In this document: one piece after another, positions 45,829-57,982 of the stretch
How the letters are laid out: the number at the start of each line of letters is the position of its first letter
Position numbering within the stretch: position 1 is the stretch's first letter
Assembly (NCBI GenBank): GCA_024402405.1
Contig: JAKSTW010000005.1
Span: 1 to 62,368 of the forward strand
Length of the DNA: 62,368 nucleotides
Reading direction: 5' to 3'
From: Spirochaetia bacterium
GTDB taxonomy: Bacteria; Spirochaetota; Spirochaetia; CADAEX01
Position numbers and translations under genes: made by a program
The notes under the pieces: model-generated
Told to the model about the DNA's origin: nothing
Seen by the model: the letters and a program-made list of their open reading frames with translations, nothing else
The model's database searches: none

Positions 45829-45860
45829 AATGCCATCCGTCAGAGGGTGGCATTTTTTTT
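45829..45860 (+). terminator. Rho-independent terminator after the foldase gene
   Basis: A 10-bp stem (45829-45838 with 45845-45854) and a run of eight T. It also overlaps the 3' end of the convergent trpR-like gene. Confidence 0.93.
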
Positions 45861-46169
45861 ATAAAGTTCGATCATCCTTCTGAATGCTGAATTTTCTTTT
45901 TTGTATTCTTTTGAGCCTCTGGTGATCTTGCACAGGCTCATTTCCAGATTTTCTGCTATTTTTCTCTGGCTGATTCCCTGATCCAGCATTCTCACTACTG
46001 TCCACCTGTCTGAGATTTCTTTTGCCTCATGTTTGGACAATAGCTCCAGCAGAAAATTTTTTATGAGTTCCTTATCATCCGTTGCTGCCAGGATGTATGA
46101 AAGTTCTTCCCATGACTGTTCTATTATCTTTTCCCGTTCTGTCATGTCGGCCTCATTTGAAAATTGCAT
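45840..46169 (-). CDS. trpR: TrpR-family transcription repressor
   Basis: A 109-aa helical DNA-binding protein. The helix-turn-helix is in ISQRKIAENLEMSLCKITRGS, the classic TrpR motif (split here: ISQRKIAENLEM then SLCKITRGSKEYKK). DRWTVVRMLDQG precedes it. TrpR binds tryptophan and represses trp genes. No trp gene is nearby. It overlaps the DHH gene by 17 bases. ATG 46169 has GGAGAAA upstream; ATG 46145 is possible. Confidence 0.85.
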   Translation of the reverse strand: MQFSNEADMTEREKIIEQSWEELSYILAATDDKELIKNFLLELLSKHEAKEISDRWTVVRMLDQGISQRKIAENLEMSLCKITRGSKEYKKENSAFRRMIELYKKNATL

Positions 46170-47112
46170 GAAATTTCTCCACCAGCTGATTTCTTATTTC
46201 TTCTATTGTTCCGTCTGCCTTGAATCCGGCTGCTTTTTTATGACCGCCGCCGTTGAATTCGCCTGCCAGTTTGCCCAGGTCTATATCTTCTTCTCTGGTG
46301 CGCAGCCCCACAGTCACGGACCCGTTGTCTTCTTTTATGTTGGCAACTGCCTTCACATTTTCTGTTCCCAGCAACAGCATATAAATTGTGTCTATGTCTC
46401 TTGCCTGAGGGGAGACTGCAATATAATCTTCCATTGTCTCGTAGGTGATGAGAAGTTTGCCGTCAAAATATGGAGTGACTCTGCCAAGGGATTTTGCCAT
46501 CTGATATCTGGAGTCCAGAGTCCTGTTGCCATTGATGTCAAAATATATTTTATTTGGTGATGCCCCTGCCTGTGTGAGTCTGGCCGCTGTCTCAAATGCC
46601 CTGTATCCTCCGGATGTCAGATGTCTGAAAAATCCAGTGTCGGTGCACAGCCCCAGCATGAGGAGCTCGGCCTCTTCTTTTGTGGGCTTTTCGCCCAGCT
46701 CATCAATGAGCTGCAATATAAGCATGGTATTGGAAGATGCATCCGGATCCACATATCTGAGGTCTCCGAAATCAGTGCCAGAAGAATGGTGGTCTATTAT
46801 TATTGTCTTATATCCTGTTATGGAATCTGCGAATATTCCCGTCCTGTCAGGAGTGGAACAGTCCACGATTATGGCTGTGGCATCATTTTTAGGAACATCG
46901 AACGGTACAAATTCAGAATGGAATAAAGGTTCAAATCTCTTTATCTCCACACGGTCAAATTTACCCTGTGAGAAAAGGCGCACATTTTTTCCTATTCTTT
47001 TCAGAAAAAGTCCAAGTCCCAGCTGGCTTCCTATGCAGTCACCGTCAGGATCCATATGTCCGAAGATATAAAAATTTTTGTTCTTCTTTATCTGATCTGC
47101 TATATCCTTCAT
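46153..47112 (-). CDS. DHH/DHHA1 phosphoesterase (NrnA-like)
   Basis: A 319-aa cytoplasmic manganese-dependent hydrolase. The DHH domain has GHMDPDGDCIGS, VDCSTPDR and IIDHHSSG. The DHHA1 domain carries GGGHKKAAGF near the C-terminus. Relatives degrade very short RNAs (nano-RNase) and pAp. It is the third gene of the gltA operon, 11 bases after the M24 gene. Confidence 0.9.
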   Translation of the reverse strand: MKDIADQIKKNKNFYIFGHMDPDGDCIGSQLGLGLFLKRIGKNVRLFSQGKFDRVEIKRFEPLFHSEFVPFDVPKNDATAIIVDCSTPDRTGIFADSITGYKTIIIDHHSSGTDFGDLRYVDPDASSNTMLILQLIDELGEKPTKEEAELLMLGLCTDTGFFRHLTSGGYRAFETAARLTQAGASPNKIYFDINGNRTLDSRYQMAKSLGRVTPYFDGKLLITYETMEDYIAVSPQARDIDTIYMLLLGTENVKAVANIKEDNGSVTVGLRTREEDIDLGKLAGEFNGGGHKKAAGFKADGTIEEIRNQLVEKFHAIFK

Positions 47113-47123
47113 TTTCTTTCCTG

Positions 47124-48290
47124 TTAAAATCTGAAAGTCATAAGTTCCTGCTGTGGAATTCCGCCGGAAATTATTGCCCTGTTGTTTCTGATATACACAT
47201 CAATCTCGCTGCGCATACCGAATCTGTCAGTATAAAGCCCGGGCTCAACGGAAAAACATGACCCTTCACACAGAAATCTGGTGTCTGGAAATTCCCTGCT
47301 GTCCAGATTCACTCCGTTGCCATGTACTTCTGTGTCTATACTGTGTCCTGTCCTGTGCTTTATATAACTGCCATATCCTGCTGCCATGAGTATTTCTCTT
47401 GCTGCAAGATCACATTCTGCACCTGTTATTTTTTCTCCGGATGCCAATGCTCTGGAAACAGTTCTGACCACATTATCTCTGGCTGACCTGACAGTATTGA
47501 AAAAATCAGTGTATTCTGCAGGGGGATTCGGTCCTGTATATCCCAGCCAGGATATATCTCCGAAAACATCATCATCTGCCTGTCCTTTTGCCCAGATGTC
47601 AAACTGTATGATCTCACCCGGCAGGATCTGTTTTCCTGCTCTCTCCACAAAATAGTGAGGATTGCCTGAATTTATCCCTGCTGCCACAACAGGCATGTCT
47701 TCTGATATCAGTTTTCTTTTATTGTATTCCTGAAGTATGAAATCTCTTATTTCTCCCTCGAAGACTGCAGCGCCTGCCTGAAATCTTGTCTCTATTTTTT
47801 CCCAGCTGAGCCGTATTATGTCATACAGGTGTCTCGCTGCCTGCTCATGTGACTGTATCTGGCTGTCAGAAAGAGTTCCCAGGACCTGCTGTATCAATGA
47901 TGATGCAGGTACCAGTTTTATTCCTGCTTCTGTCAGCCTTGTGGCTGTACCATAGTCCAGGTATGAGAAATTTGGAAGCACCGGATCAAACTGGGCTGCC
48001 AGTGTTGTGCCTGAGAAAGAATGGAGAATGGCTGTGAGCTCGTCGTATGAGGAGTAGATGATAAGTTTTCCCGGAAGAGTGCTCAGGTTGTCCTTTTCTA
48101 TTGAATGGCATATTCTGATATTCTCACCGTTTTTAATGCAGATGTAATACCATGGACGTGTGTTTATCTGACTGGCCGGAATATCCAGAAGTCTCAGGGC
48201 TATGGGATCTCTTTTTCTGAAACTGCAGAAGAGCCAGCCCCGGACATCTGAATTTTTCAATGCATCATTTATCTTCCCTAAATAATTCAT
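47124..48290 (-). CDS. M24-family metallopeptidase (Xaa-Pro type)
   Basis: A 388-aa peptidase with a creatinase-like N-terminal domain (1-155) and a pita-bread catalytic domain. Metal ligands appear as FDIWAKG and VFGDIS (two Asp), HRTGHSIDTEVHGNG (His), SVEPGLY and RSEIDV (two Glu). Substrates are usually peptides with proline at the second position. It is coupled to gltA by an ATGA overlap. Confidence 0.88.
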   Translation of the reverse strand: MNYLGKINDALKNSDVRGWLFCSFRKRDPIALRLLDIPASQINTRPWYYICIKNGENIRICHSIEKDNLSTLPGKLIIYSSYDELTAILHSFSGTTLAAQFDPVLPNFSYLDYGTATRLTEAGIKLVPASSLIQQVLGTLSDSQIQSHEQAARHLYDIIRLSWEKIETRFQAGAAVFEGEIRDFILQEYNKRKLISEDMPVVAAGINSGNPHYFVERAGKQILPGEIIQFDIWAKGQADDDVFGDISWLGYTGPNPPAEYTDFFNTVRSARDNVVRTVSRALASGEKITGAECDLAAREILMAAGYGSYIKHRTGHSIDTEVHGNGVNLDSREFPDTRFLCEGSCFSVEPGLYTDRFGMRSEIDVYIRNNRAIISGGIPQQELMTFRF

Positions 48291-49636
48291 TTTCTGTCTT
48301 TTATGGATATATAAGGGGTTTTTTCCGATACTACTCTGTATGCCGGTCTTATAAGCTTACCGCCGCTGACCAGCTCCTCGATCCTGTGGGCTGACCATCC
48401 TGCCACGCGGGCCAGCGCAAAGATAGGTGTGTACAATGTGGTAGGTATATTCAGCATTCTGTATACGAAACCTGAATAGAAATCGACATTCACACAAAGT
48501 ACTCTGTCAGAGTTCCTTTCCTGGTTGAATGCCACACCTGCAAGTCTCTCCACATTTTCAAACAGATTCAGTTCCTTTGTGAACCCTTTCTCTGATGCCA
48601 GACTTCGGGCTGTCTCTTTGAGCAGAATCGCTCTAGGATCTGACTTTGTATATATTGCATGTCCATAACCGTATATGAGACCGGCTTTGTCGAAAACTTC
48701 CTTTCTTAGGATTTTCTTCAGGTATGTCACTATCTCATCATCATCGTTCCAGTCATGGACATTTTCCATTATATTCTCCATCATCTGGACTACCTTGATG
48801 TTTGCACCGCCGTGTTTCGGTCCCTTCATTGAGCAGAGAGCCGCGGCAATGGCCGAATAAGTGTCTGTATATGCTGATGTTACCACGTGGTTTGTGAAAG
48901 TAGAGTTGTTACCGCCTCCGTGCTCTGCATGAAGTATGAGGGCGATGTCCAGAACTGTGGCTTCCAGCTCTGTGTATTTCTTGTCCGGTCTGATCATCCT
49001 CAGAAAGTTTGCGGCAGTTCCGATCTTAGGTGCCGGATTATGTATGAAAAGGCTTTTTCCCTCGTGGTAGTGAGCCTTGGCCTCATATCCGTGGGCGATC
49101 ATGGTAGGGAATCTGGCGATCAGGATGATGCACTGTCGGAGCACATTCTCTATGGAGACATCATCTGCATTGGAATCATAGGAGTAGGATGCCAGGACGC
49201 TTCTGGCCAGTTTGTTCATGACATCGTTGCTCGGTGCCTTCATTATCATGTCTTCTGTGAATCCAGGCGGCAGATTTCTGTATGAGTCCAGCAGATCATT
49301 GAATTCATCCAGTTCTGTGCTGGAAGGAAATTCTCCGAACAGCAGGAAGTAGACGGTCTCCTCAAAACCATGCCGTTTCTCACGAAGCACGTTGTTTACT
49401 ATATCATTAATGAGAACACCTCTGTATGTGAGTCTTCCCTCATCAGGAATAAGGGTACCTTCATCAAAAATGTAACCATGGGCATCACCAATCTGGGACA
49501 GTCCTACTACAACACCTGAGCCGTCGCTGTTGCGCAGACCTCTTTTGGTATTGTACTTGGCATAAAGGGCAGGGTTGATGGTGTTGTTCAGTACAGCAGT
49601 TCCTTTCATCCTGCTGACATATTTCTCAATGTCCAT
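48287..49636 (-). CDS. gltA: Citrate synthase
   Basis: Condenses acetyl-CoA and oxaloacetate to citrate. A 449-aa full-length enzyme. The three catalytic residues are intact: first His in GPKHGGAN, second His in YGYGHAIYT and Asp in CVNVDFYSG. It is of the longer type with an N-terminal extension (DGSGVVVGLSQIGDAHG). The ribosome site is GGGGGA. This normal enzyme shares a 230-base intergenic region with the divergent citrate-synthase-fold operon described below. Confidence 0.95.
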   Translation of the reverse strand: MDIEKYVSRMKGTAVLNNTINPALYAKYNTKRGLRNSDGSGVVVGLSQIGDAHGYIFDEGTLIPDEGRLTYRGVLINDIVNNVLREKRHGFEETVYFLLFGEFPSSTELDEFNDLLDSYRNLPPGFTEDMIMKAPSNDVMNKLARSVLASYSYDSNADDVSIENVLRQCIILIARFPTMIAHGYEAKAHYHEGKSLFIHNPAPKIGTAANFLRMIRPDKKYTELEATVLDIALILHAEHGGGNNSTFTNHVVTSAYTDTYSAIAAALCSMKGPKHGGANIKVVQMMENIMENVHDWNDDDEIVTYLKKILRKEVFDKAGLIYGYGHAIYTKSDPRAILLKETARSLASEKGFTKELNLFENVERLAGVAFNQERNSDRVLCVNVDFYSGFVYRMLNIPTTLYTPIFALARVAGWSAHRIEELVSGGKLIRPAYRVVSEKTPYISIKDRK

Positions 49637-49776: not shown

Positions 49777-49805
49777 TTGACCTGTTTTTTATTATCAAGT
49801 AAACT
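49777..49805 (+). promoter_or_regulatory. Promoter of the citrate-synthase-fold/aldehyde dehydrogenase operon
   Basis: TTGACC (49777-49782), 17 bases, TAAACT (49800-49805), overlapped by the ACTTGA/TCAAGT repeat. Confidence 0.65.
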
Positions 49806-49866
49806 CTATGGCAAAGTAATAATATTTGCCGTAAAGGTGAATTATAATCATTAGGAGGAGTAAAGT

Positions 49867-50763
49867 ATGGATCGTAAACCATTGATCCAGAGAAAGACTG
49901 GTATTTCTTACAAAACAGAAGAAAAAACAGTTTTGCGTGGCTATAACGTATGCGAACTCGCAGACGCTGGTTACACATTTATCGATGGACTGTATATTCT
50001 TTTTCAGGGAAGAATTCCTGCAGAAAATGAAAGAGCAATGCTTGACTACGAAGTTGCAGAGTTCCTTGAGCACTCAATGTCACCTTCAGCAGCAGCTGCT
50101 ATTGGAGTAATTAACGGACACCCAATGCTGCCAGCAGCAGTAGGTGCTTCTATCGCTACATTCGGTGGAGCACACGGACCTGGAGCTCAGCATGGATACA
50201 TGATGAAAAAATACCTGGACAGAGCTGTTCTCGAGCACAAGACAGTAGAAGAAGTTGCTGTTGAGTGTGTTGATGAATACATGGACAGCGGTAGAGCAGT
50301 TATGGGTATGGGTCAGCCACAGCACCTTGATGGCGATCCAAGAGCTGAACCTACACACCTGAAGCAGGAAGAAATCGGTGTAGTCGGCGTTTACCTGAAG
50401 TTCCAGAGAGCTCTTGAGAAGAGATTCTATGCAAGAAGATTTGCTGAAGGCAGATCATATGTTGCAGTTAACATGGTTGGAGCTGGTAACACAGCACTTT
50501 CCGATATGGGATTCTCACCTAACGCAGCATGGACAATCGGTTGTGTAACAAGAGGTTACAGCTGTTCTTGCCACGCACTCTACACACTGAAGAAAGGTAG
50601 AGCTTGGGGTGCTTCCAGAAACGAACCTATGGTACAGATGCTTGACCTTTCTATGATCAAGTACATCGGACCAGATGACAGAGAGGTTCCACCACAGAGC
50701 GAAAGAGAAGCTTATGCATTGAACGAACTTAAGACAGGAGAATTTAAGAAATGGGTGATCTGA
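49867..50763 (+). CDS. Citrate-synthase-fold protein, citryl-CoA-lyase-like, subunit 1
   Basis: A 298-aa protein of the citrate synthase/citryl-CoA lyase superfamily. It lacks the N-terminal part of true citrate synthase, as citryl-CoA lyases do. The first catalytic His is kept (His103 in GGAHGPG). The second is Gln150 in GMGQPQH, where the family has GxGH. The catalytic Asp is Val204 in VNMVGAG, where the family has NVDGA. The CoA-site DPRAEP is kept. A strong AGGAGGA precedes the ATG, and codon choice is narrow, so expression should be high. It overlaps subunit 2 by 13 bases. Relatives split or join CoA thioesters; with two of three catalytic residues gone the reaction must differ or need the partner. 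Confidence 0.82.
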   Translation: MDRKPLIQRKTGISYKTEEKTVLRGYNVCELADAGYTFIDGLYILFQGRIPAENERAMLDYEVAEFLEHSMSPSAAAAIGVINGHPMLPAAVGASIATFGGAHGPGAQHGYMMKKYLDRAVLEHKTVEEVAVECVDEYMDSGRAVMGMGQPQHLDGDPRAEPTHLKQEEIGVVGVYLKFQRALEKRFYARRFAEGRSYVAVNMVGAGNTALSDMGFSPNAAWTIGCVTRGYSCSCHALYTLKKGRAWGASRNEPMVQMLDLSMIKYIGPDDREVPPQSEREAYALNELKTGEFKKWVI

Positions 50764-51869
50764 CAAACGTTGCTGTCAACAGAATGACAGGTAAAGTATG
50801 TGATGAAAGAATTGCTACAATGAAGCATTCTAAGAGAAAACCAATCGGAAACCTTGCAAATCCTAATTTGCTTTTCGATTATACAAACAGAGAGGTTGGC
50901 ACACTTCCTGATGATAACAGAGCTCATTTCAAATGGGTTTCAGAAGTTGCTTACAAAAACATCCACAGAATCGTAACCAGAGGTTACGATACAACAGAGC
51001 TTGTTGAAGCAGGCTATGGTGTTTGTGATGTTCTCTTCATTGACTTCCAGGCTAGAATCCCACTGGTTGAGGAAAGAAAAGTTCTCGACTACTGCCTCCT
51101 CGTTGGTCTTGAAGATGGTCTTTCAAACCCAGCTCTTATCGCAAGATTGGTAGCTAGAGGAAAATCATATCTTACACAGGCTGCAGGTGCTTCTGTATTT
51201 GCATTCGGTGAAGCTTATGGTGCATTCAAGAACTTCGGATATATGCTCGAGAAATATTACAACAAGATTGCAGAAGAAGGCCTCTCAATGGCTGATGCAG
51301 CTGCTCTCTGTGCAAAAGAGTGCTATGCTGAAGATCATTTCGGAATCAACGAAAACTATGTTAAGGATCCTACACCTAAACACCTTCTCGCTTATGCTGA
51401 AAAGACACTTGCTGGAAAGAAAGAGCTGAAATATGTTCCATTCCTGAAGGAAGTTGTTAAGGCTGCACAGGCTCAGATCGGATATGTTGAGGCAGACGTC
51501 ATGGCTGCTATCACAGCTGCTCTTATGGACTGCGAGTTCACACCAGACGCTGTATGGTGTATGCTTGGTGTAACAAGAGCTTTCTCTGCTGGTGCTCATG
51601 TATGTGAGGAAATCGAAAGAGAATGCGAGAGAGACGGATTCGATGCTTACGGTTCAACTCTCACACCAAAAGAATGGTACGATGGTCCAGCTGACAAACC
51701 AGTTCCTCCTATCACAGAGAGAGGAAACTTCAAGGGTGGTCAGGCTCAGACACCAGATGAATGGAAGGCTCTTTGGAACAAGAAAGCTAAAGAACTCTCT
51801 GGTTCTGGTTTCGCTATCGACTTCGTTCTTGATGATGCAAGAAAAGTTGTACACGGAAAGAAGAAATAA
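50751..51869 (+). CDS. Citrate-synthase-fold protein, subunit 2, no canonical catalytic residues
   Basis: A 372-aa homologue of subunit 1 with about 75 extra N-terminal residues and a lengthened C-terminus. Aligned segments are RGYDTTELVEAGYGVCDVLF against RGYNVCELADAGYTFIDGLY, and TPDAVWCMLGVTRAFSAGAH against SPNAAWTIGCVTRGYSCSCH. At the three catalytic places it has Tyr156 (GEAYG), a non-His residue, and Met251 (EADVMAA). It therefore looks like the non-catalytic or differently catalytic half of a hetero-oligomer. The start overlaps the end of subunit 1, so the two are made together in equal amounts. Three hairpins follow its stop. Confidence 0.78.
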   Translation: MGDLTNVAVNRMTGKVCDERIATMKHSKRKPIGNLANPNLLFDYTNREVGTLPDDNRAHFKWVSEVAYKNIHRIVTRGYDTTELVEAGYGVCDVLFIDFQARIPLVEERKVLDYCLLVGLEDGLSNPALIARLVARGKSYLTQAAGASVFAFGEAYGAFKNFGYMLEKYYNKIAEEGLSMADAAALCAKECYAEDHFGINENYVKDPTPKHLLAYAEKTLAGKKELKYVPFLKEVVKAAQAQIGYVEADVMAAITAALMDCEFTPDAVWCMLGVTRAFSAGAHVCEEIERECERDGFDAYGSTLTPKEWYDGPADKPVPPITERGNFKGGQAQTPDEWKALWNKKAKELSGSGFAIDFVLDDARKVVHGKKK

Positions 51870-51874
51870 TTTTG

Positions 51875-51949
51875 CAGGCTTAGCAGCCTGATTTGTCTAA
51901 AAATACACCCCTGTCTTTGGCAGGGGTATCTTCACATTTAGGATGTGAA
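51875..51949 (+). other. Three tandem hairpins between subunit 2 and the aldehyde dehydrogenase gene
   Basis: CAGGCT-TAGC-AGCCTG (51875-51890), ACCCCTG with CAGGGGT (51907-51927) and TTCACAT with ATGTGAA (51931-51949). None is followed by a clear T-run on the plus strand, so they are more likely mRNA processing or stability elements than terminators. Confidence 0.75.
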
Positions 51950-51974
51950 AAAAATCTAAAAAGAGGTGATTGAT

Positions 51975-53420
51975 ATGGATATGGAAAAAGACCTTCCTAT
52001 TCAGGAAATGTACGAAAGAGGAAGAAAAGCTTTCGAATGGATTGAATTCAAGACACAGGAAGAAGTAGATGAAATCGTTGCAGTAGTTGGTTGGCAGTAT
52101 CTCCAGAAGCAGGTTGCTGAAGAAGGTGCTGAACTTGCTTTCACAGGTTCCGGAATGGGCGTTAAGGCTGATAAATACGGAAAAGCTGGAAAAGTAAGAG
52201 GTATCCTCTGGGATATGAAAGGTGCTAAGACTTGTGGAATCATCAAAGAAGACCACATCAGAGGTATCACAACATATGCAAAACCAATGGGAGTTGTTGC
52301 TAACGTTTGTCCTTGTACAAACCCATGTATCACAGCTGCTTTCATCGGTCTTACACTTCTTAAGACAAGAAACGCTATGATCTGCTCACCACACCCAAGA
52401 ACAAAGCTTGCTACAGTTAACGCAGTTAACTGGGGAAGAAAAGCTCTTAAGGCTATTGGTGCTCCAGAGGACCTGTTCCAGGTAATCGCTGAACCATCAA
52501 ACGAGAAGACTGTTGAACTTATGCAGAAGTGTGACTTCGCTGTAGCAACAGGTGGAAAGGCTCTTATCAAAGTTGTACACCTTGCTGGTACACCATCTGT
52601 AACAGTAGGTGCAGGTAACGTAAGAGCAATCATCGACCCATCTGCTGACCTGAAGCATGCAGCTATGTGTGTTGCAGCATCAAAGTGCTACGATAACGCT
52701 ACATCATGTTCTTCTGAGAACGCAGTTTCTATCCATGAGAGCATCTATGAGCCAATGATGGAAGAACTCAAGAAAGTTGGTGGATACCTCCTGGACGATG
52801 CATCAAGAGAGAAACTCAGAGCTGCTATGTGGCCTGATGGACATACTCTTAACAGAGACATCGTTGCAAAACCAGTTCAGACAATCGCTAAGATTGCTGG
52901 AATCTCTGTACCAGAAGGAACAAAGTTCATCATGGTTAAGGGACAGAAGATCGGTCCAGAAGATATGTTCTCTAACGAGAAACTTTCTCTTATCCTCACA
53001 GTATGGACATGGACAGATTTCGAAACAGAAATTGCTACACTCAAGAAGAACCTCTACTTCTCAGGTGTTGGTCACTCATGTGCACTCCATTCAACAAAGC
53101 CAGAGCAGTGGCACAGACTTGCTGAGTTCATCCCTACAGGCCGTGTAAACATCAACATGCCTAACACAGTTGTTAACTCAGGAAGCTGGTTCGCTGGACA
53201 GGAATTCACAACAACAATCGGTTGTGGTACATGGACAGGAAACAGCCACTCTGACAACATCAACTATAGACATTTCATGAATACAACAAGACTTGCTGTT
53301 CCAAGAGCATGGTATGTTGCTACAGATGATGAAGTATTCGGAAAGTATCTTGCTAAGGCAAAAGCTCTTATCGGAGACGACAGAGTTGATATGCCACACA
53401 AGCCAGCTTACCTTGACTGA
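51975..53420 (+). CDS. CoA-acylating aldehyde dehydrogenase (SauS/EutE-like)
   Basis: A 481-aa NAD(P)-dependent enzyme of the family that interconverts an aldehyde and its acyl-CoA. The catalytic Cys is near residue 245 in DNATSCSSENAV; the Glu used by hydrolytic aldehyde dehydrogenases is absent from its usual place, as in the acylating class. Other motifs are GVVANVCPCTNPC, NAMICSPHPR and VTVGAGNVRAII. The closest characterised relatives I recall act on sulfoacetaldehyde, acetaldehyde or similar short aldehydes; the substrate here is not known. AGAGG lies eight bases before ATG 51975. It is the last gene of the operon and ends with a UUCG terminator. Confidence 0.9.
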   Translation: MDMEKDLPIQEMYERGRKAFEWIEFKTQEEVDEIVAVVGWQYLQKQVAEEGAELAFTGSGMGVKADKYGKAGKVRGILWDMKGAKTCGIIKEDHIRGITTYAKPMGVVANVCPCTNPCITAAFIGLTLLKTRNAMICSPHPRTKLATVNAVNWGRKALKAIGAPEDLFQVIAEPSNEKTVELMQKCDFAVATGGKALIKVVHLAGTPSVTVGAGNVRAIIDPSADLKHAAMCVAASKCYDNATSCSSENAVSIHESIYEPMMEELKKVGGYLLDDASREKLRAAMWPDGHTLNRDIVAKPVQTIAKIAGISVPEGTKFIMVKGQKIGPEDMFSNEKLSLILTVWTWTDFETEIATLKKNLYFSGVGHSCALHSTKPEQWHRLAEFIPTGRVNINMPNTVVNSGSWFAGQEFTTTIGCGTWTGNSHSDNINYRHFMNTTRLAVPRAWYVATDDEVFGKYLAKAKALIGDDRVDMPHKPAYLD

Positions 53421-53435
53421 TTTGTGATTTAGCAC

Positions 53436-53463
53436 AAAAAGCTCCCTTCGGGGAGCTTTTTTT
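53436..53463 (+). terminator. Rho-independent terminator of the citrate-synthase-fold operon
   Basis: AAAGCTCCC-TTCG-GGGAGCTTT (53438-53459) with a T-run. The UUCG tetraloop makes it very stable. Confidence 0.96.
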
Positions 53464-53491: not shown

Positions 53492-54193
53492 ATGATTAAA
53501 GCATTGATTTTTGATTTTGTGCAGACACTTGGTGACGCAGCCAGCGGATATAAAGATGGAGAGAAAAATGCCCAGAAAAAACTCATTGAGAAACTGGGGA
53601 TAACTGATACAGAAACATTTATGGAACATTTCCGGGAAATCAGAAAAAAACATTTCTTGGCAGCTGACTTCAACCGCAAGAATCAATGGCTTGAGCTTCA
53701 GGCACTCTACGGAAAAAATCTTGGCGATGAGTTCCTGGACAAGCTGGCTGATGAGTACTGGCAGTTTGTCATTGATGCCATGAAACTTTTCCCTGAAGCT
53801 GAAGAAGTTATTTTAAGCCTTAAGAAAAAATACAAGCTGGGCCTTATCTGCAATTCCCAGCGCGACGGTTCTACCAGAGCTCTCCAGAGTCCTGAGTTTG
53901 AACGTGCGGTAAAATATTTTGACAGCTATATTCTGTCAGGTACTGATGGTATTCCTGCCAAACCGGATCCTGCGCCATTCAATATGATGCTGGAAAACCT
54001 TGGTGTCAAGGCTGAAGAGGCACTGTATGTCGGTGATGACTATAGAGTCGATATTGAGGGTGCCCATGGTGCCGGAATTCCAGTTGTATGGCTGAAGCAC
54101 TATTCTGTAAAGAGAAACTGGCCGGAGAATCCGCTGGATGTACCTGTCATCACAGATCTTAAGCAGTTGGAGCAGCTTGATCTGCTTAAATAA
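53492..54193 (+). CDS. HAD-superfamily hydrolase with altered motif I
   Basis: A 233-aa protein with a helical cap. Motif I reads IFDFVQTLGD: the nucleophile Asp is present, but the second Asp (general acid) is Val. Motif II is ICNSQRD, and IPAKPDPAPF and YVGDDYRVDIEGAHGAG are intact. Loss of the second Asp usually means weak or different catalysis. It lies 29 bases after the operon terminator, with no strong promoter seen. Confidence 0.82.
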   Translation: MIKALIFDFVQTLGDAASGYKDGEKNAQKKLIEKLGITDTETFMEHFREIRKKHFLAADFNRKNQWLELQALYGKNLGDEFLDKLADEYWQFVIDAMKLFPEAEEVILSLKKKYKLGLICNSQRDGSTRALQSPEFERAVKYFDSYILSGTDGIPAKPDPAPFNMMLENLGVKAEEALYVGDDYRVDIEGAHGAGIPVVWLKHYSVKRNWPENPLDVPVITDLKQLEQLDLLK

Positions 54194-54248: not shown

Positions 54249-55166
54249 ATGAATTTATATCATTTGAAGACATTTTATTACACCGCAAAATTCAGAAGTC
54301 TGACCAGGGCGGCAGAGTATCTGTGCATTACACAGCCTGCCGTCACAAAACAGATAAAGCAGCTTCAGAATGATTATAATCTAAAGTTTCTGGATGTCAT
54401 AGGAAAGAAAGTCATCCTTACTGATGCCGGTCTCAATCTGTTTACTATCGCAGAGCGCATTTTTGACATGGAATCTCAGGCTGAGGCGGCGATCAAAGAT
54501 TTTCAGGAGTATAATAAAGGAAAGATCAGTATTCTTTCTTCTGAAAGTTTCGGATCTTATTACATTCCTCATATCATAAACTGTTTCAGAGAAAAATGGC
54601 CGGAGATATGTATCTCGGTACAGTCTGCAGCCAATATCGACATAATAAATGGCATAGCAGCTCTTAAAGAGGATATCGGATTTATTTCAGCTCCGGTTCA
54701 GAATCCTAAGATTTCTGTATATGAGATCATGGATGATGAGATCGTGCTTATTGCCAATCCGGGATTCAGACTCAGTGACCGAGATACACTGCAGATCCAG
54801 GATCTGGAAGGGTGCGAGCTTATAGTCCATGAACCTGGTTCCATGGTAAGGAAAGTGGTGGATTCTTATCTGAAGAAAAATCATGTCCATGTGAATATTA
54901 AATATGAGATATCAAATAATGAGACCATAAAGAAGATGGTCCAGGATAATATCGGTGTGGCATTTCTGACAAGAAGTATAGTCAGGGATGCGGTTGACTG
55001 CGGTCAGCTTATATCTGTTCCTATTGCTGACAGAAATTTCAGACGCAAATATTATATGGTTTATCACAGTGAGAAATATTTTTCCAAGCCGCTTAAAGAT
55101 TTCAGGGATCTGGTGCTGAAATGGATGGATATATATCCTGCTATCGTAGAAAAAAATGATGATTGA
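54249..55166 (+). CDS. LysR-type transcription regulator
   Basis: A 305-aa DNA-binding regulator. The helix-turn-helix lies at about 18-37 (SLTRAAEYLCITQPAVTKQI) and the effector-binding domain at about 90-290. LysR proteins respond to small metabolites and bind T-N11-A sites near target promoters. It lies downstream of the citrate-synthase-fold operon on the same strand and may control it or the two genes behind it. No ribosome site precedes the ATG. The next gene overlaps its end by 11 bases. Confidence 0.92.
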   Translation: MNLYHLKTFYYTAKFRSLTRAAEYLCITQPAVTKQIKQLQNDYNLKFLDVIGKKVILTDAGLNLFTIAERIFDMESQAEAAIKDFQEYNKGKISILSSESFGSYYIPHIINCFREKWPEICISVQSAANIDIINGIAALKEDIGFISAPVQNPKISVYEIMDDEIVLIANPGFRLSDRDTLQIQDLEGCELIVHEPGSMVRKVVDSYLKKNHVHVNIKYEISNNETIKKMVQDNIGVAFLTRSIVRDAVDCGQLISVPIADRNFRRKYYMVYHSEKYFSKPLKDFRDLVLKWMDIYPAIVEKNDD

Positions 55167-55933: not shown

Positions 55934-57982
55934 ATGGCAAGGGTGAATATTAAAATCAATGGTAAGGATCATTCAGTTCCTGAAGATATGACAATTCTCA
56001 GGGCAGCCGAATCATGCGGATATGAGATACCTTCTTTATGTAATGTTCGTGAGCTTTCCTCATATACCAGTTGTCTTATGTGTGCTGTTAAAATTGATGG
56101 GGGAAAGGGAATTTTCAGACCTGCCTGCCATATGAAAGTTGCAGAAGGACTGAGCGTCATTGTCAGTGGTGATGAAGTTGACCGGGTGAGAAAGACCTGT
56201 ATCAACCTGATCGTTGCAGACCATTGCGGTGACTGTCTGCCACCCTGTGTCAGTACATGTCCTGCCGGTATGCCTGTAAAAGAATTCATGAGCCTGGTGG
56301 CTGATGGGAAGGAACTGGAGGCTGCCGCTCTCATAAGAGAAAAATCACCATTTGCCGGAATCCTGGGAAGAATATGTCCAAGGCCATGCGAGGAAGAATG
56401 CCGCCGCAACAGGGTGGATGAACCTATGGCGATCTGCTATATGAAGCGTTATATCGCTGACTTTGAGCGGAAACATGCCGGAGATGCCATTCTGCCGGAA
56501 AAGTCTGCTCCCACAGGAAAAAAAGTTGCCATAATAGGAGCAGGACCTGCCGGTATGTCTGCTGCATATTATCTGGCATTGGCCGGACATAGTGTCACTG
56601 TATTTGAGGCACATGACAAGTCTGGTGGTATGCTCCGTTATGGAATACCTTTCTACAGGCTTCCTGATGATATTCTGTCTTATGAGTTTGATGCCGTGGA
56701 GAAGCTTGGTGTGGATGTGAAGTATAACACAGCTGTCGGAAAAGATATAAGTGCTGCCGCACTGGCCGCTGATTTTGATGCTGTGCTGATCGCTGCAGGT
56801 GCTCAGGTCCCGACTGCCATGCGCATAGACGGTGAGAATACAGAGGGTGTTTATTCCGGTATTGATTTTCTGGGACGGATCGCAGAGAACAGGCCAGTTG
56901 ATATCGGGTCAAAAGTGCTGGTGGTGGGCGGAGGAAATACTGCCATAGATTCTGCCAGAACAGCTGTGCGGCTGGGTGCGGATGTGACTGTGCTCTACCG
57001 CAGGACCAGGGAAGAGATGCCTGCCAGCAGCTTTGAGATCGATGAGGCTATGGCAGAGGGAGTCGATATCCGATATCTGACAGCACCTTTGGCTGTGGAG
57101 AAAAAGAATGGGATTCTCTCACTCAGATGTATTGAGATGAGATTGGGAGAAGCCGATGCATCTGGCCGAAGAAGTCCTGTTCCGGTGGAAGGTTCTGAGT
57201 TTGAACTTCCGTGTACTGCTGTAATAGGTGCCATAGGTCAGAAAGTCATGGTTCCGTGGGTAAAGGAACTTGGAGTGGAGCTGACAGGACGGGGTACTGT
57301 CCAGACCGATCCTCGTACTCTTATGACCAGCAGACCAGGCATCTTTGCTTCAGGCGACTGTCAGTCAGGCGCTGATATTGCTGTGCGTGCATCTGCTGCC
57401 GGAAGAAAGGCTGCTTTCTCCATAAATCAGTATCTGAAAGGTGAGAGTGTTACTGGTGAGCCGGTTATGTTCAATTCTTCCATGGGCAGCTTGGATGAGG
57501 TGCCTGAAGCGCTCTTTGCTGACAAAGAGAGAGCTTCCAGAGCTCAGATGCCTGTGCTGGGAATGAATGCCAGAAAATCAGGATTTGATGAGATAGAGAC
57601 TGGATTGACCACAGAGATGGCAAGAAGAGAGGCTGCCAGATGTCTCCGGTGCGGATGTGACAAGGCTGATGACTGCCGCCTGAGAAAGTATGCTACAGAG
57701 CTTGGAGCCGACCAGCATTATTTTGACGGTAAGCATAAGGATTATGGTCTGGATGACACTCACAGCGACATCAGGATAGAGACTGGAAAATGCATATCCT
57801 GCAGTGCTTGTGTCAGAGCCTGTGCTGAGATAAAAAAATTCAATATTCTTGCTTTCAATGGCAGAGGATATAAAACCAGGATGCTGCCTCCGTATGGATA
57901 TCCGCTGGCGGATACGGAATGTGATGGCTGCGGTGAGTGTGCCAGAGTGTGTCCTACAGGAGCAATAATAAAGAAGAAATAA
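55934..57982 (+). CDS. GltD-like iron-sulfur flavoprotein with N- and C-terminal ferredoxin domains
   Basis: A 682-aa electron-transfer protein. It has an N-terminal 2Fe-2S domain (1-80; Cys in PSLCNV, TSCLMCAV and PACHM), a NuoG-like cysteine segment HCGDCLPPCVSTC (about 95-115), and a GltD-type Fe-S entry (CPRPCEEEC). FAD-binding (IIGAGPAGMSAAYYLA, about 199-214) and NADPH-binding (VVGGGNTAIDSART, about 330-343) domains follow. Two 4Fe-4S motifs close the protein (CISCSACVRAC, CDGCGECARVC). Such proteins move electrons between NAD(P)H and ferredoxin, or feed hydrogenases and dehydrogenases. The partner is not encoded beside it; a link to the aldehyde dehydrogenase is an inference. Confidence 0.88.
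   Translation: MARVNIKINGKDHSVPEDMTILRAAESCGYEIPSLCNVRELSSYTSCLMCAVKIDGGKGIFRPACHMKVAEGLSVIVSGDEVDRVRKTCINLIVADHCGDCLPPCVSTCPAGMPVKEFMSLVADGKELEAAALIREKSPFAGILGRICPRPCEEECRRNRVDEPMAICYMKRYIADFERKHAGDAILPEKSAPTGKKVAIIGAGPAGMSAAYYLALAGHSVTVFEAHDKSGGMLRYGIPFYRLPDDILSYEFDAVEKLGVDVKYNTAVGKDISAAALAADFDAVLIAAGAQVPTAMRIDGENTEGVYSGIDFLGRIAENRPVDIGSKVLVVGGGNTAIDSARTAVRLGADVTVLYRRTREEMPASSFEIDEAMAEGVDIRYLTAPLAVEKKNGILSLRCIEMRLGEADASGRRSPVPVEGSEFELPCTAVIGAIGQKVMVPWVKELGVELTGRGTVQTDPRTLMTSRPGIFASGDCQSGADIAVRASAAGRKAAFSINQYLKGESVTGEPVMFNSSMGSLDEVPEALFADKERASRAQMPVLGMNARKSGFDEIETGLTTEMARREAARCLRCGCDKADDCRLRKYATELGADQHYFDGKHKDYGLDDTHSDIRIETGKCISCSACVRACAEIKKFNILAFNGRGYKTRMLPPYGYPLADTECDGCGECARVCPTGAIIKKK

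Follow-up and report, generated by a model that had tools for sequence, protein, structure and literature searches.

Results

Layout of the locus

The window analysed here, a stretch of 62,368 nucleotides from the genome of a Spirochaetia bacterium (GCA_024402405.1, contig JAKSTW010000005.1), carries a set of four genes on its forward strand: two encode proteins of the citrate-synthase fold (A and B), the third a coenzyme A (CoA)-acylating aldehyde dehydrogenase (ALDH) and the fourth a hydrolase of the HAD superfamily (HAD; Table 1). The open reading frames of A, B and ALDH are as described in the initial annotation of this DNA, and A and B are, as it stated, homologous yet different (~32% identity, E 4e-29; profile-profile E 1e-39). 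A GTG 9 bases upstream of the ATG at 51975 could serve as an alternative start for ALDH.

The same annotation framed the three genes with a promoter and a UUCG terminator as a self-contained unit. The terminator stands, while the promoter is a consensus match only, in a region with 11 promoter-like sites against 8.2 +/- 2.8 in shuffled sequences (no enrichment). Nor is the unit closed at the terminator, as the HAD gene, which starts 72 bases past ALDH on its other side, is nonetheless a member of the conserved gene set, and many genomes have a further gene, encoding PhnW, inside the operon. A complete, ordinary citrate synthase is indeed encoded next door (NF010635, 680.8 bits; cut-off, 426), and the A/B pair is not needed for citrate synthesis.

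Table 1. Features of the gene set and its surroundings. Positions are those of the window, except where a locus in another genome is named.
Feature	Position	Strand	Length	Remarks
A gene	49867-50763	+	298 aa	citryl-CoA-lyase-like, citrate-synthase fold; proposed CoA-thioester-binding catalytic subunit
B gene	50751-51869	+	372 aa	diverged paralogue of A; proposed partner subunit
A/B overlap	50751-50763	+	13 nt	end of A (..KKWVI, stop) doubles as start of B (MGDL..)
B-ALDH spacer	51870-51974	+		two hairpins; the PhnW gene occupies this spot in many other genomes
ALDH gene	51975-53420	+	481 aa	ATG start; proposed phosphonoacetaldehyde dehydrogenase (CoA-acylating)
Intrinsic terminator, ALDH/HAD gap	53436-53461	+		11 pairs, UUCG loop, T-run; good quality
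HAD gene	53492-54193	+		lacks the Asp+2 acid/base (DFVQTL here; usually DFGQTL); core gene of the module
Promoter-like site	49777-49805	+		TTGACC-17-TAAACT; 9/12 consensus match; tentative
LysR regulator gene	54249-55166	+		downstream; best match NF040786; phn_lysR TIGR03339 169.5 bits, below cut-off 341
Ordinary citrate synthase gene	48287-49636	-		divergent upstream neighbour
PhnX-like second HAD	L116:3336-4064; L115:3329-4057; L117:15184-15933

Conservation and distribution

When ~85,000 species genomes were scanned with an A alignment as query, 80 loci were recovered (58-96% identity), spanning about ten phyla and nearly all in genomes labelled as metagenome-assembled genomes (MAGs) or uncultured symbionts and mostly from anoxic habitats. 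Carriers belong to the Spirochaetes (including rumen and termite-gut spirochaetes), Desulfobacterota, Planctomycetes, Verrucomicrobia, Chloroflexi, Gemmatimonadota, Latescibacterota, SAR324, Bacteroidetes and Proteobacteria. The gene order A-B-(PhnW)-ALDH-(HAD) is repeated across these phyla, with B adjoining A almost everywhere and ALDH coming next in most loci whose sequence extends far enough; the A-B-ALDH order, which the initial annotation had proposed to seek in other genomes, is thus a recurrent one. The 13-nt overlap is kept as well, with an ATG at -13 in 67 of 75 loci and a GTG at -13 in six more, and its retention across phyla indicates that the A and B subunits are translationally linked.

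An orthologue of HAD was present in 46 of the 53 A-carrying genomes tested (E<=1e-30) and went undetected in G009, which belongs to the family but lacks A. Five carriers possess A-B-ALDH and no recognisable HAD orthologue, some of them possibly incomplete MAGs. The distribution of the module is patchy, with A in 7 of 393 Spirochaetota and in 5 of a 147-genome sample of one Desulfobacterota class, which suggests that horizontal transfer has carried it between lineages as a unit. In the latter sample ALDH (>780 bits) and HAD also occur in five genomes each, four of them shared, and the two odd genomes are contig-edge cases (in G108 the contig ends inside ALDH, in G219 just past PhnW). Mean column identity is highest for A (83%), followed by ALDH (71%), B (66%) and HAD (58%). 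One Sedimentisphaerales MAG has two different A-B copies (L034 and L039), with no ALDH near the second.

Phosphonate genes accompany the module

The neighbours of all loci were clustered and the recurrent families scored against NCBIfam models. Within 8 kb of the module, and usually between B and ALDH, the recurrent neighbour is the 2-aminoethylphosphonate (AEP) transaminase PhnW; three NCBIfam models identify all 29 tested copies as such. Also recurrent are HpnZ (17 of 18 matches) and phn_DUF6 (15 of 15), two families themselves named by association, and PhnA (5 of 6). Components of a phosphonate transporter, PhnC and PhnE, score over cut-off right by the operon in L031 and L116, and the AEP-binding protein phnS2 does so in L055 (500 bits; cut-off, 393). 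Overall, at least 49 of the 74 loci outside the window's genus have a phosphonate marker within 8 kb. Near HpnZ, carriers repeatedly show a second, PhnX-like HAD protein with the motif DLSGTT (TIGR03351, 169.5 bits; cut-off, 219), which possibly represents another phosphonate branch.

At the level of genomes, PhnW was over cut-off in 41 of the 59 searched (58 of them A-carriers). Among the 147 genomes of the sample above, 15 possess PhnW, comprising four of the five A-carriers, in all four of which it is adjacent to A, and 11 of the 142 others (Fisher p = 3e-4; p = 0.02 without the two index genomes). The window's own genome has its PhnW (385.6 bits; cut-off, 360.8) on another contig, by a TRAP-TAXI transporter. 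This arrangement, with PhnW divergent from the transporter (L102:6241-11169, contig C16), is seen in the window's family and suggests that the TAXI-type transporter takes up AEP or a relative.

The phosphonatase PhnX (TIGR01422) was over cut-off in none of 60 carrier genomes, and phosphoenolpyruvate (PEP) mutase in only five of the 60, none in the window's genus. Most carriers show, with PhnW adjacent or elsewhere in the genome, the make-up of an AEP catabolic cluster (PhnW with catabolic genes, pepM absent). The lack of a recognised phosphonatase and the rarity of PEP mutase point to a catabolic pathway, and phosphonate biosynthesis was rejected. That the gene set serves a phosphonate pathway is very probable.

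An acylating dehydrogenase close to SauS

The best NCBIfam match of ALDH is the sulfoacetaldehyde dehydrogenase SauS (NF047625), at 453 bits, 147 below the cut-off of 600. Its catalytic Cys245, the residue expected of an acylating dehydrogenase, is invariant in 49 of 49 sequences, and its nearest structure in the PDB is 8cei, an acylating succinic semialdehyde dehydrogenase. The enzyme is not PhnY, scoring 24.5 bits against a cut-off of 636 (TIGR03250). The initial annotation had pictured a hetero-oligomeric pair that acts, together with an acylating dehydrogenase, on a short aldehyde and CoA thioester, a picture favoured by these results and by the overlapping A and B genes, which are presumably co-translated.

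As the nearest family handles the sulfonate analogue, ALDH is predicted to convert phosphonoacetaldehyde to phosphonoacetyl-CoA, which is probably an intermediate of the pathway. The top score of SauS could also be read as a sign that the substrate is another C2 aldehyde, such as sulfoacetaldehyde, and that the phosphonate neighbours are incidental. That lead was followed, but the score falls short of the SauS cut-off, the neighbours scanned included no recognisable sulfonate gene and phosphonate genes accompany most loci, such that a sulfonate metabolism is highly improbable and was rejected.

A citrate-synthase fold without its general base

Both A and B have citryl-CoA lyase 6hxp as nearest structure when their predicted models are compared with Foldseek, and the Hydrogenobacter enzyme of that entry is also the nearest PDB match of A by sequence profile. 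A scores above the gathering cut-off of Pfam citrate synthase (PF00285; 42.6 bits, cut-off 27), while B alone falls under it (21.9 bits). Neither belongs to the citryl-CoA lyases as defined by the NCBIfam PRK06224 models (cut-offs 193-409 bits), the best scores being 118.3 for A and 65.2 for B against 212.

Across 71 A sequences H103, R159, R229, Q150 and H153 are invariant, and the invariant histidines are His103, 109, 153, 164 and 236. H103 is the equivalent of citrate-synthase His274, and R159 and R229 are the arginines of the DPR and GWxAH-type motifs. The rest of the catalytic triad (His274/His320/Asp375) is gone: the His320 position is Gln150 in all 71 and the position of the base, Asp375, is Val/Ile204 in all 71, an alignment that is non-unique at this site (V204 by the citryl-CoA lyase profile, N202 by the local hhalign end) and places an acidic residue there in neither form. 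B has an invariant N-terminal region of its own and has likewise lost the general base, with a hydrophobic residue at the Asp375 position. A supposed equivalence of human ACLY His760 with His274 was dropped, His760 being the phospho-His of the ATP-driven step (PMC10115795); the own role of the ACLY citrate-synthase-homology domain is under debate (PMC10115795).

These losses bear on the initial annotation's proposal of a carbon-carbon (C-C) lyase or synthase. Such an enzyme, for instance a Claisen-type synthase joining phosphonoacetyl-CoA to a keto acid, would suit the fold and the nearest structure, but with no general base in A or B, Gln in place of His320 in every A and scores far under the cut-offs of all citryl-CoA lyase models it is a most unlikely reading, and C-C cleavage or citrate-type synthesis was rejected as the likeliest chemistry. 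Taken with the phosphonate neighbours, the same residue changes make the carbon-phosphorus (C-P) bond the one most likely at stake.

A proposed route through phosphonoacetyl-CoA

On balance, the gene set appears to be central to a route that breaks down AEP, or another source of phosphonoacetaldehyde, and would run through a CoA thioester. All of its reactions are inferred from the computed family assignments, co-occurrence, operon structure and residue losses. PhnW would convert AEP to phosphonoacetaldehyde, which the acylating ALDH, with NAD(P)+ and CoA, would turn into phosphonoacetyl-CoA; the C-P bond would then be cut at the thioester level, with an acetyl-CoA enolate as leaving group and acetyl-CoA and phosphate as products. 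This last step may belong to the A/B complex, in which His103 of A could hydrogen-bond and polarise the thioester carbonyl and the two arginines could hold the phosphonate, leaving HAD as an accessory phosphoryl-removing enzyme or a sharer of the step. Citrate-synthase-type enzymes stabilise the acetyl-CoA enolate; were the enolate formed by loss of phosphorus instead of a proton, the base and the oxaloacetate-activating residue would be dispensable, and both are lost. That fit, together with A being the most conserved protein, favours A/B, and we tentatively propose that a heteromeric enzyme of the citrate-synthase fold cleaves the C-P bond of phosphonoacetyl-CoA, with the acetyl-CoA enolate leaving; this cleavage would be the central reaction of a third AEP route that depends on PhnW.

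The HAD protein has lost a catalytic residue of its own. Its nucleophile Asp8, Lys157 and the metal site Asp182/Asp183/Asp187 are invariant, and in 34 of 36 sequences Gly, Val or Tyr takes the place of the Asp+2 acid/base (Asp is retained in L072 and L119). Phosphonatase also does without Asp+2 (DxA), since its leaving group is not an alcohol. Within the same pathway, then, HAD itself might be the C-P hydrolase, Asp8 attacking the phosphorus of phosphonoacetyl-CoA, the thioester replacing the Schiff base of phosphonatase and A/B holding or channelling the CoA ester. The invariant Arg48 and Arg51 and the nearly invariant Arg62 (34 sequences) could bind a CoA ester, and HAD and ALDH occur in the same genomes. 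As to a Schiff base, the cap lysine of phosphonatase, Lys53 in B. cereus (PMC11203657), has no counterpart, with no invariant or near-invariant Lys outside motif III in the 34 HAD sequences. The best NCBIfam match is TIGR02253 and no PhnX match is among the matches listed; with neither the cap Lys nor a TIGR01422 match, a PhnX-type identity was dropped. Hydrolysis of the C-P bond by HAD is set back by HAD being the least conserved of the set and keeping Asp+2 in two sequences, by the most conserved pair, A/B, being left without a job and, as a modest counter-argument only, by the five carriers without a recognisable HAD; we regard it as a rather unlikely alternative.

Less probable still is a division of labour in which A/B takes the phosphoryl group off the carbon and passes it to an acceptor, either an oxygen or an enzyme (forming, e.g., an enol phosphate, acyl phosphate or phosphohistidine), and the product is hydrolysed by HAD. 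It would employ both core members of the set, an enolate or carboxylate leaving group needs no protonation and so fits the loss of Asp+2, and A offers its five invariant histidines, but the acceptor is hypothetical and a few carriers do without HAD.

Several observations weigh against C-P cleavage by A/B in an AEP pathway. There is no phosphonate marker within 8 kb of 25 of the 74 loci, some on short contigs, and some carrier genomes lack a PhnW over cut-off, so the substrate may be something other than AEP in some carriers. In the neighbourhoods scanned (no genome-wide search for PhnY or PhnA was made), PhnA borders the module in five loci only, where it would be redundant if A/B yields acetyl-CoA. 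The AlphaFold models of A and B are modest (predicted local distance difference test scores of 70.7 and 64.9), and B of the window has Glu at residue 154, the His274 position, which is His in 60 of 62 homologues. Lastly, HAD with its lost Asp+2 is equally tempting as the C-P hydrolase, on evidence of a similar kind. That A/B rather than HAD breaks the C-P bond is about as likely as not.

Other genes of the region

The LysR regulator downstream of HAD is a candidate to control the gene set, a role that is possible but unproven. Beyond it and an inositol-monophosphatase-like gene, positions 55934-57982 encode a GltD-like flavoprotein that carries 2Fe-2S and 4Fe-4S domains and scores 749.9 bits, below cut-off, against PRK12814. 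On the reverse strand, at 45840-47112, the gene of a small protein, TrpR-like by eye, overlaps a DHH-type phosphoesterase-like gene.

Discussion

The module is real and conserved, very probably serves phosphonate degradation and is apparently undescribed in the literature searched, and no characterised pathway with this set was found there, in keeping with the initial annotation. In full text, 'phosphonoacetyl-CoA' was found in one paper only, on how flavophos is made (PMC12871164), and no pairing of sulfoacetyl-CoA with a citrate synthase was found; as most subscription journals lay outside the search, the novelty is that of a set not found, not a proven one.

AEP is the commonest natural phosphonate, and rumen ciliates contain it, which would be a fitting source for the rumen carriers. 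A third AEP route, through an acyl-CoA, would explain the use of AEP by carriers with PhnW and no recognised phosphonatase. It would be spread over sulfate reducers, gut spirochaetes, Anaerolineae, Planctomycetes and Verrucomicrobia, apparently centred on anaerobes and ending directly in acetyl-CoA. Through it phosphonates would supply carbon and energy, besides phosphorus, in anoxic sediments, the rumen and the termite gut. To our knowledge the citrate-synthase fold has so far been associated with C-C chemistry only, and C-P cleavage by A/B would be a new reaction for the fold and a new class of C-P-cleaving enzyme. The four genes can be cloned, which makes the question directly testable.

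Among enzymes of known function, citryl-CoA lyase and citrate synthase (6hxp; the ACLY citrate-synthase-homology domain) share with A/B the fold, the thioester-binding His and the substrate arginines, while A/B consists of two paralogous subunits and has lost the equivalents of the base Asp and His320. SauS is the nearest family to ALDH and acylates the sulfonate analogue of phosphonoacetaldehyde to a CoA thioester, though ALDH remains under its cut-off and the genomic partners differ.

Hydrolytic breakdown of AEP is described in reviews as proceeding by PhnWX or PhnWYA only (PMC10574752, PMC10590968). Like PhnWX (PhnW with the phosphonatase PhnX), the proposed route would start from PhnW and phosphonoacetaldehyde, use a carbonyl-derived electron sink for C-P cleavage and involve a HAD protein without Asp+2. 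It differs in the lack of a PhnX over cut-off in the carrier genomes, in a thioester where PhnWX has a Schiff base, in its extra citrate-synthase-fold pair and in its product, acetyl-CoA rather than acetaldehyde. In PhnWYA (the dehydrogenase PhnY and the phosphonoacetate hydrolase PhnA), as in the proposed route, phosphonoacetaldehyde is oxidised before the C-P bond is cleaved and oxygen is not needed, whereas here the dehydrogenase is acylating and not PhnY, the intermediate would be a CoA thioester and not free phosphonoacetate, and PhnA is found in few loci. PhnWYA ends in acetate; a route ending in acetyl-CoA would spare the ATP needed to activate acetate, a saving that would fit an anaerobic way of life.

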